This document shows positions 19,734-22,083 of a stretch of 64,000 nt of DNA, piece by piece. The position numbers and the translations under genes were made by a program. A model generated the notes under the pieces. That model was not told the DNA's origin. It worked only from the letters and a program-made list of their open reading frames with translations, and made no database searches. The DNA is from Fistulifera solaris. Taxonomy: Eukaryota > Bacillariophyta > Bacillariophyceae > Naviculales > Stauroneidaceae. The stretch spans positions 1,550,001 through 1,614,000 of the forward strand of contig AP026123.1 of assembly GCA_030295235.1 (NCBI GenBank), in the 5' to 3' direction. The number at the start of each line of letters is the position of its first letter. The first letter of the stretch is position 1.

Positions 19734-20622
19734 ATGTCATTAATAACTTTCAAAAGAGGGCTTTGTCGTGTTCCCCAACGCTTTGTCGGCCCAAGATGTG
19801 AAGGATCTCAACGAAGAGTTAGAGCGAGTTTTAGGCGGATCCTACGATCGCGATCAAGCCCCGGATAAAATACCCCGAATAAAGATCAAACCAAATGAGA
19901 GTATTCTTACCAAACAATCCGGAAAGGTTATTCAAGTCATTAACGTCCACAAATCCAATACGCTCTTTCGTCGTCTCGCATGTCATCCCACATTAGGACA
20001 GATTGTGGCCGAACTCGCCGGTTGGAAGCACGGTACTCGGCTAGCGCAAGATCAAATTTGGGCCAAACCTCCCGGAGCCAAGCCGTTGGCGTTTCATCGT
20101 GATTCGCCGTATTTCATGTTTGAACCGAATGATGTTGTAACGGTGTGGGTGGCTTTAGATGACATGGCCGACGATGTCGGTCCTCTCGAATACGTCCGAG
20201 GTAGTCATTTGTGGCAGACAAAACAGCACGTGGGATCAGCCAAGCAATTTTTCCAGTCAAATGGTGGAATGAAGCTGTTGCATAGTGCTGCTGTACAAGC
20301 GGGTGTATTGGATGAACACTACGGGGAAGAGGAATGTGCTAACCAGCTAGAGTTTGTGACCCTGCAAGGACTTCAGGCGGGTGGCATATCAATACACGAC
20401 GGACGAACTTGGCATGGTAGTGGCAAGAATAAGACAACAAATCGACCGAGACGAGGGTTGGGACTGCACTTTGTACCGGCAGAGGTTCGATTCACAGCAG
20501 AAGCAGTCAAAAGTTCCTTGTGGCGACACTATGTCACGGAAGATGTTGACCCTGCATCAATCATTCTGCCACAAGAAGATTTTCCATTGACATGGCAAGC
20601 ACCATCAGTATCAGAAGCCTAA
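19734..20622 (+). CDS. Phytanoyl-CoA dioxygenase (PhyH)-like Fe(II)/2-oxoglutarate oxygenase; one frame break
   Basis: This is a putative 2-oxoglutarate-dependent hydroxylase. Seen: the metal motif HRDSPYF (HxD) with a distal His in GRTWHGSGKNKT, followed by a basic run RPRRGLGLHF that would bind 2-oxoglutarate. GPLEYVRGSHLW is typical of the family's core. The long frame begins at GTG 19768, but in-frame upstream codons read KEGFVVFPNAL, the usual PhyH opening. Joining these to ATG 19734 (MSLITFK) needs one A fewer in the AAAA at 19752-19755, giving about 295 residues. An upstream exon is the alternative. No signal peptide. The substrate cannot be inferred. It converges on the Translin-TRAX gene with only about 55 bases between stops. 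Confidence 0.85.
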
Positions 20623-20677: not shown

Positions 20678-22083
20678 TTAATCGTCTCGATTACCGTCTT
20701 CATCCTCTCCCTGGTTGGAATCCGTCGTAGGAACGATGCGGCCGCCGGCAGCTTCCGACAGGCTCATATCGTAGAGCATACGCTCCAATTTCTCCTCCGT
20801 GCGACGGACGCCTTCCAATTTCTTTTGCACGGGGCATCGTTCCAGGCTTTGTAGAGCCGAAAGGACCGAGGAAACACCCTGTAACGACAGCTCCACGGCG
20901 GATTTGTCGCGAGCCGTACCACGTTGCACAGCATAGCGTCCGATCTCACCCGTCAAATCACAAAGCCCCCAAGATACTCTTCCGGCTCAAGTGCTACCTC
21001 GGTAAAGTCCTCCATCTGGAGAAAGACTCCAGAAACCTTCGAGCTACAAGTACCATCAGAAAAGAACGCATTACCGTACAACCAGGCTCCAAAGAGACGT
21101 GCCTCGACGTACTCCTCCAGCACACCCGTAAATGAACCAGCAGTTCGTAAAAACGGTTCCTCTCGCACAATGGGCATCAAGTCTTTTTGAATACAATCGC
21201 GACACTCGTTCAGTAAATCACGAGTGCGTTTCGTATCCCCGCGATGGAGTGCAAAATGGATTGTTTCGCCGCCTTTTGACCGTCTCGACTTTTCTTGATC
21301 AACGATTCCCGCAATTCATCACGATGATCCATGCGATCTTTGAGAGCTTGTAATTCTTCAGTGGGTATGAGTGCAGCAGTCTCGGTCTTGATGCGTTTTG
21401 CTTCGGAAGTTTCCGCGTAGGATGTATCGTCCACCGTGGCTCCGGTAATAGATAGTTCGTAAAGCAATGTTTCCAACGCTTGTAGGCTATATTTGACGCC
21501 ATCGTACTTTCTACGGAGAGGACCGTTTCGAAAATCCATTTGCAGCAAAAAATTCTGACATTCCGTCACCAAACTCGCTGCCGCCTTGACCGACGCAACA
21601 TCCCGCACGGTCGCTCGCCCCAGTCCGTAACGTCGAAGTTCTTGCGTCAATCCCATGACGGCGCCGGCCAAATACTCCTCATCCGTAAGAGTCGGATACG
21701 ACCGAGTCAATTCGGAAAGTGACACGAGCGTCCCTGTTTCTAAAAAATGCTGAAACGATTCGAGACGAACAATATCTTCCATGCGATTCGACAAATTCGC
21801 CAAACGCGGTTCTCTCGGGAGTACTCAACAACACGTGTTGACAAGTCGTTCGCAAGGATTCCATCGCTCCCTTCTCTCCCACGTGTTCTTTCGATACATT
21901 CACAACGACTTGTAAGTGTCGCCACAGTTCAAACGCTTCCTGTCGTCGGGCTTCAACGGCCGTAATGCGTGCCGACAAAGCGGAAAGATCCAGCACATTG
22001 GCTGCAGCGTATTTGAGGGGAAGGCTCGGCATAGTCGAAAGGAAGCGAGTTATTGATTTTGTTGGAAAACAGCGTTTGATCAT
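20678..22083 (-). CDS. Single-chain Translin-TRAX fusion; three frame breaks
   Basis: Two translin-family domains follow each other. The first (about residues 20-220) has MEDIVRLESFQHFLETGTLV, YLAGAVMGLTQELRRYG and LRRKYDGVKYSLQALETLL, which is Translin-like. After a linker TEELQALKDRMD comes RESLIKKSRDGQKAAKQ, the TRAX N-terminal helix, then LEEYVEARLFGAWL and LCDLTGEIGRYAVQRG. These carry the E-x-x-E and D-x-x-x-E positions of the TRAX nuclease site. Translin and TRAX normally form the C3PO endoribonuclease from separate chains. The linker and both flanking domain parts sit in one uninterrupted frame (21803 to about 21245), so the fusion does not depend on the frame repairs. Slips occur near 20966-20970, 21237-21240 and 21817-21819. 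The start is ATG 22083 (468 residues) or 22032 (451); the longer form adds a basic leader that could target mitochondria. Confidence 0.85.

Follow-up and report, generated by a model that had tools for sequence, protein, structure and literature searches.

Fistulifera solaris encodes a single protein chain in which a Translin-like half is followed by a TRAX-like half. This chain is fairly likely to be a C3PO-type endoribonuclease of diatoms that arose when a single-gene Translin-family protein was duplicated and the copies were joined. An earlier note on this DNA had described Translin and TRAX in one polypeptide. There is indeed one chain, with a dead Translin-like half and a TRAX-like half that holds the acidic residues, but the joining of animal-type Translin and TRAX genes is not borne out, as joint orthology of the two halves is rejected with the five reference rows used here (p-AU 0.0024). 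The name Translin-TRAX fusion describes the likeness of the halves rather than their most likely source.

The gene and its reading frame

The window is the whole stretch of DNA that was analysed, 64,000 nucleotides, and corresponds to positions 1550001-1614000 of contig C3 in a 51.7-Mb assembly of 61 contigs. The nearest database protein, P0005 (FisN_17Hh202) of F. solaris, is identical to the window by tblastn at 446 of its 452 residues, spread over three frames. The features of the gene are listed in Table 1.

Table 1. Features of the two-domain Translin-family gene in the window
Feature	Position	Strand	Basis or remark
Two-domain Translin-family gene, P0005 (452 aa)	20678..22032	minus	tblastn of P0005 on the window: four pieces, three frames
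Translin-like half, P0005 residues 1-200	21435..22032	minus	helical bundle without catalytic residues, with basic RRKYDG motif
Linker, residues 201-233	21336..21434	minus	structure prediction; inside the single frame 21210-21803
TRAX-like half, residues 234-430, with putative catalytic residues	20747..21335	minus	
Putative catalytic E308 and E311	21103..21114	minus	correspond to human TRAX E126 and E129 by alignment
Putative catalytic D360 and E364, motif DLTGE	20945..20959	minus	correspond to human TRAX D193 and E197 by alignment
Frame break in Translin-like half, window copy	21804..21820	minus	C4 copy open here; not in P0005
Frame break right after junction, window copy	21250..21265	minus	ORFs, C4 copy alignment, P0005 tblastn
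Frame break right before DLTGE, window copy	20960..20975	minus	ORFs, C4 copy alignment, P0005 tblastn

The junction, RESLIKKSRDGQKAAKQ, is composed of the C-terminal helix of the Translin-like half, the linker and the N-terminal helix of the TRAX-like half. It lies within one open frame (ORF 21210-21803, minus strand), in agreement with the earlier note. The wider claim that the whole stretch is one uninterrupted chain does not hold for the window copy, which is frameshifted near 21.81, 21.26 and 20.97 kb. A second copy is found on contig C4, in a 5.3-kb stretch that is ~85% identical to the window. This second copy accords with the allopolyploidy of F. solaris, which PMC5935921 describes as having 42 homoeologous chromosome pairs. 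The C4 homoeolog is open at all three break points of the window copy and has a single break of its own, ~20 bases from the middle one. P0005 has none of the frame breaks of either copy and is one chain of 452 aa. Because P0005 is one chain and the C4 copy is open at all three points, assembly error is the most likely cause of the breaks in the window.

The gene end first proposed, 22083, corresponds to an in-frame ATG upstream of the P0005 start at 22032. In both homoeologs, the open frame continues upstream past the MPSLP start (22033-22083 in the window; 3570-3620 of L005 on C4), and this extension holds the in-frame ATG and a basic stretch with RFLS at its end. Among the 144 relatives that have the start of the first domain, 56 have at least 35 residues ahead of it. 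The upstream frame could possibly provide an alternative start and an organelle presequence.

A neighbouring ORF, which we take by recognition to be dioxygenase-like, converges on the C3PO gene from the plus strand (19768-20622), and its counterpart on C4 lies at 1190-2164 of L005. It is 284 aa long in the window versus 324 aa on C4. Inspection by eye shows a frame break near the start of the window copy.

Two domains with complementary residues

The PF01997 profile matches P0005 in two stretches that together score 137 bits, against a cut-off of 25.9, and all four genomic pieces exceed the cut-off. The two-half plan is more than chance, because both halves score over the PF01997 cut-off and the 120 relatives listed by the first protein search (the best 120 of 197 matches) all have both halves in the same order, Translin-like first. 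The predicted fold of P0005, a single-chain model with a pLDDT of 85.3 and a pTM of 0.80, is composed of two helical bundles and matches human TRAX and mouse Translin chains. The linker is of low confidence at residues 200-218, and helix 1 of the TRAX-like half starts at residue 225. Among solved structures, the best match of the first half is Translin, and that of the second half, when searched with profiles, is TRAX. When the second half is searched as one sequence, Translin chains are matched before TRAX.

We take E126, E129, D193 and E197 of human TRAX to be its catalytic residues. The motifs LEEYVEA (21100-21120) and DLTGEIGR, which had been said to keep these positions, are both found in the window. 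In the alignment of 150 relatives, the E308 and E311 columns hold E in every protein, while the D360 column holds D in 149 and the E364 column E in 148, the remainder being gaps. A regular-expression check of the motifs on 120 proteins missed 12 and 4 of them; the aligned columns of these are E and D except for gaps. E is likewise present at the E308 and E311 columns in 20/20 TRAX halves, 8/8 stand-alone (solo) proteins and 16/16 DPANN/CPR proteins. The column of TRAX D193 is different in the Translin-like (TSN) halves, where 17 of 20 have G, two have A and one has a gap; all 8 solos and all 16 DPANN/CPR proteins have D.

The basic residues follow the reverse pattern. The column of human Translin R192 holds R in 20/20 TSN halves, 8/8 solos and 16/16 DPANN/CPR proteins, and in 1/20 TRAX halves. 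Translin motif B3 (192-RKRY-195) is kept in the TSN halves, with R at the R192 column in 20/20 and R or K at the next two columns in 20/20, a count that left out residue 195. Motif B2 (86-RFHEH-90) is not kept; the R86 column is R in 16/20 TSN halves and the H88 and H90 columns are never H. In the three reference Translins, these two columns hold H in 1/3 and 2/3, respectively. By the aligned residues, the loss is complementary: the first half is without the putative active site and retains the basic motif, and the second half is the reverse.

Between the homoeologs, dN/dS is 0.17 in the first half, 0.38 in the linker and 0.05 in the second half. The values of 0.17 and 0.05 mean that both halves are constrained, and both are under purifying selection.

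Occurrence in diatoms and other genomes

The first two protein searches together (the second giving the best 120 of 386 matches) list 150 distinct proteins, and both halves are present in 150/150, in lists that favour proteins having both halves and in which some entries, such as P0122, are partial. A fusion peculiar to the F. solaris genome is ruled out, as the same plan is found in these relatives. The two-half proteins with species names come from Fistulifera, Cyclophora, Thalassionema, Amphora, Epithemia, Nitzschia, Pseudo-nitzschia and Seminavis, and others come from Bacillariaceae MAGs. All of the named genera are presumably pennate diatoms; the lineage was looked up for Fistulifera, Thalassionema, Cyclophora and two Pseudo-nitzschia. 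Both halves are spanned by MMETSP entries from Thalassionema frauenfeldii and from two Pseudo-nitzschia species, and by a UniRef entry of Cyclophora tenuis. CAMPEP entries are, we assume, MMETSP transcript assemblies, and therefore transcripts cross the junction.

The third search used the second half alone as the query and was confined to short proteins, a length limit that shuts out whole chains. Among the best 120 of its 1099 matches, 80 have no first half upstream, as expected from this limit. Both halves are present in 25 of the 119 new proteins under the stricter cut-off and in 39 under a looser one. Some of the proteins that have the second half without the first, such as P0168, P0171, P0173 and P0191, begin at the first methionine of that half. 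P0249 and P0256, two MMETSP ORFs labelled as complete, contain the second half only in part. The second-half-only proteins may come from internal starts, from exon pieces or from truly separate genes. Divergent two-half pieces (P0237, P0240, P0246 and P0247) suggest that the two-half form extends past the named diatoms. By the database entries, the two-half form is common, and many pennate diatoms share it. A search for relatives in viral contigs gave 28 pattern matches, of which 0 were confirmed. In the titles and abstract beginnings of the open-access papers listed, no description of a Translin-TRAX fusion in diatoms was found; an earlier notice is possible.

Separate Translin and TRAX genes elsewhere in the F. 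solaris genome, which the earlier note had named as refuting the fusion if this locus were unexpressed, were not found in six frames with PF01997, human Translin or human TRAX. The PF01997 profile search of the 51.7-Mb assembly matched only the C3 and C4 homoeolog loci. The six-frame genome search, which could miss a much-split gene, gave no other loci matching human Translin or TRAX up to an E value of 10. Human TRAX has two weak matches in the genome (E 0.03 and 0.15), and these lie on the first half, not the second.

Single-gene relatives

Stand-alone proteins of ~235 aa were found by the third search in Bremia (P0273), Cafeteria (P0267), Monoraphidium (P0260) and others. Single-gene members of the Translin superfamily have reportedly been noted in some unicellular eukaryotes by Gupta, Kale and Kumar in 2012. 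When bacterial and archaeal genomes were scanned with the stand-alone proteins, 94 pattern matches resulted, from which 16 loci were confirmed, 36-51% identical to P0273. These are eight Woesearchaeota, three other DPANN, one other archaeon and four CPR bacteria. Over the best segment, the identity to P0273 is 49% for the Woesearchaeota locus L006 and 51% for L007. The best solved match of P0273 is NEQ131, with 55 bits versus 37 for human TRAX. NCBIfam models NF011156-NF011161 (PRK14562, haloacid dehalogenase superfamily protein) are the best matches of P0273 and L007, below their cut-offs, and the name looks wrong.

Similar membrane-protein ORFs adjoin the Translin-family gene at L006 (1-279) and L007 (3-464), perhaps as a conserved neighbourhood. 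The ORF downstream in L007 looks by eye like the beginning of an aspartyl-tRNA synthetase. Together with the similar flanking membrane-protein ORFs, this makes it unlikely that the Woesearchaeota contigs are contaminated.

The profile of the first half scores 79-147 bits with the solos, 135 and 124 with L006 and L007, 40-96 with the other DPANN/CPR proteins, 49 with human Translin and 37 with fly Translin. The second-half profile scores 148-169 bits with the solos, 144 and 149 with L006 and L007, 74-125 with the other DPANN/CPR proteins, 55 with human TRAX and 52 with fly TRAX. In the reverse direction, human Translin has a median of 31.5 bits with first halves versus 17.2 with second halves, and human TRAX has 26.7 with second halves versus 2.2 with first halves. 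The medians of animal Translin and TRAX are higher with solos or DPANN rows than with either half, except that for fly TRAX the solos are level with the TRAX halves. Among the proteins compared, both halves thus appear closest to the stand-alone protist and Woesearchaeota proteins.

Phylogenetic placement of the halves

The reference set of the trees has five animal/fungal rows and no plants, which is its main weakness. A tree of 59 rows was built after 12 of 71 rows were removed, namely Archaeoglobus, NEQ131, four CPR rows and six partial or divergent halves. In this tree, both halves and eight solos are grouped (95/95), and this group is then joined by Woesearchaeota L007 (99/97). Animal/fungal Translin and TRAX are separate (100/94), and the TRAX halves cohere weakly (85/13). 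With the long rows included, the 71-row tree has a weak backbone and the TRAX halves do not come together. Its placements of animal TRAX together with NEQ131 among DPANN rows, and of the Archaeoglobus C3PO among the TRAX halves, are doubtful.

Topology tests reject the joint constraint of the first half with animal/fungal Translin and the second half with animal TRAX, at the p-AU given above. The second half with animal TRAX alone is rejected as well (p-AU 0.0148). A constraint that places only the first half, with animal/fungal Translin, is not rejected (p-AU 0.13). The two halves as sole sisters are rejected (p 0.007; p 0.020 with P0269 added). Therefore, the duplication may predate the split from some solo lineages, with two separate genes perhaps joined later, or else the fast first half may be misplaced. 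The grouping of both halves and P0269 with the animal/fungal rows, away from the other solos, is also rejected (p 0.028). Because all eukaryotic rows as one clade are not rejected (p 0.26), lateral transfer from archaea is a possibility only.

Alternative explanations

The eukaryotic Translin and TRAX genes could instead have fused in the diatom lineage, with fast animal evolution masking their orthology to the two halves. This is unlikely, although much of the residue and structural evidence would fit it: a dead half with the basic C-terminal motif next to a catalytic half, best solved-structure matches to Translin for the first half and, with profiles, to TRAX for the second, the preference of animal Translin for first halves and of animal TRAX for second halves, and the grouping of the first half with animal/fungal Translin, which is not rejected (p-AU 0.13). 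However, the single-gene protist proteins outscore the animal proteins by about 1.6 to 3 times with both halves, and both the second half with animal TRAX (p 0.0148) and joint orthology (p 0.0024) are rejected by the tests. Moreover, the second half as one sequence reaches Translin chains before TRAX, and the only genome matches of human TRAX, weak as they are (E 0.03 and 0.15), lie on the first half. Duplication and joining of a single-gene protein is the reading that we prefer, and it could still be correct for a chain that acts as an RNA-binding scaffold or a monomer and not as an octameric RNase. Translin alone binds nucleic acid, according to PMC3299731, the linker allows other arrangements, and the structure prediction covers a single chain only. 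Such a role is nevertheless improbable given that the acidic catalytic residues of the second half do not vary except for gaps, and that this half is under the stronger constraint (dN/dS 0.05).

The remaining alternatives concern the locus itself. Decay of the gene into a pseudogene in F. solaris would explain why the window copy is broken three times and the C4 copy once, but the two copies are broken at different places and P0005 is free of breaks. The adjacent dioxygenase-like ORF likewise looks shortened in the window and is whole on C4, and dN/dS values of 0.17 and 0.05 also make decay very improbable. Hardly credible at all is an artefact, in which two neighbouring genes are read as one or are joined by the assembly or gene model. 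The three frame breaks, the predominance of metagenome gene predictions among the relatives, and the proteins with the second half alone (P0168, P0171, P0173 and P0191) or part of it (P0249 and P0256) would be in its favour. Against it, the junction is open in both homoeologs, P0005 is one chain, the Thalassionema frauenfeldii and two Pseudo-nitzschia MMETSP entries and the Cyclophora tenuis UniRef entry span both halves, and both are present in every one of the 150 proteins from the first two search lists.

Proposed origin and function

The ancestor of the diatom chain would have been a single-gene Translin-family protein of the type found in Woesearchaeota and some protists, with an acidic active site and a basic C-terminal RNA-binding motif. 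Its gene would have been duplicated and the copies joined into one chain, in a timing and order that we infer. In the first copy, the active site would then have been lost and the basic motif retained; in the second copy, the opposite would have happened. The halves would have degenerated complementarily, as Translin and TRAX did.

The chain is probably an active single-chain C3PO. The halves would most likely pair with each other like the up-down dimer of Translin and TRAX, and four chains would form a 4:4 octameric barrel with four active sites inside. The Translin-like half would supply the partner that the TRAX-like half needs, at a ratio fixed at 1:1. The earlier note had contrasted this ratio with the unequal ones reported for animal and fungal complexes. 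A 1:1 ratio within the chain follows from the architecture, but it is not outside the reported range, because 4:4 is listed for separate chains among the compositions in PMC3299731 (4:4, 5:3, 6:2 and 4:2). Candidate substrates would be short RNAs, either single-stranded or duplex, for example pieces of passenger strands, tRNA leaders and tRNA fragments.

Piwi, PAZ and RNase III domains are all found in the genome by profile search, so that a role in RNAi or in tRNA processing is possible. On contig C7, a Piwi domain (127985-128785) and a PAZ domain extending to 129839, with one stop inside, lie ~5 kb from a paired RNase III (135104-135910). On contig C8, a PAZ domain (106907-107191) with no Piwi match lies ~5 kb from a paired RNase III (100748-101632).

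A bolder version of this origin is plausible but tentative, and we hold it with less conviction than the duplication itself. The division of C3PO into a dead partner that grips RNA and a live one that cuts it may have arisen twice, once as Translin and TRAX, and once in diatoms, perhaps also in other ochrophytes, within one chain. The source of this chain would be a woesearchaeal-type homo-oligomeric enzyme that was passed between DPANN archaea and protists, and the diatom chain would have replaced the classical pair and would force a 4:4 barrel.

The compositions of C3PO vary between reports, and the diatom chain bears on why one partner is dead and which ratio works. With its ratio fixed at 1:1, a natural chain of this kind would allow a direct test of the 4:4 composition through a single gene. 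Descent of the halves from an archaeal-type ancestor would mean that the split into dead and live partners evolved at least twice, and the single-gene relatives would then give a picture of that ancestor. The diatom chain is also a concrete nuclease candidate for work on small RNA or tRNA in diatoms.

Comparison with known C3PO systems

Eukaryotic C3PO, known from the human (3pja) and fly (3axj) Translin-TRAX structures, shares with the diatom chain a dead basic partner and a catalytic acidic one, the same fold and the aligned TRAX residues. It is composed of two chains, whereas the diatom protein is one chain with a fixed 1:1 ratio. Of the Translin RFHEH motif, the diatom first half keeps only the arginine, and the diatom halves are not joint orthologues of the Translin-TRAX pair by the topology test with five reference rows (p-AU 0.0024).

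The archaeal single-gene C3PO proteins of Nanoarchaeum (NEQ131, 5jr9) and Archaeoglobus (3zc1), together with the Woesearchaeota proteins L006-L009, L011-L013 and L018, share the catalytic residues and the fold. They have one domain per chain with both functions and no dead half, whereas the diatom chain has two domains between which these features are divided. The stand-alone protist proteins of Bremia (P0273), Cafeteria (P0267) and Monoraphidium (P0260) are the nearest relatives of both diatom halves among those compared. Each is a single domain in which the catalytic and basic motifs are both present, and the diatom chain splits these motifs between its two halves.
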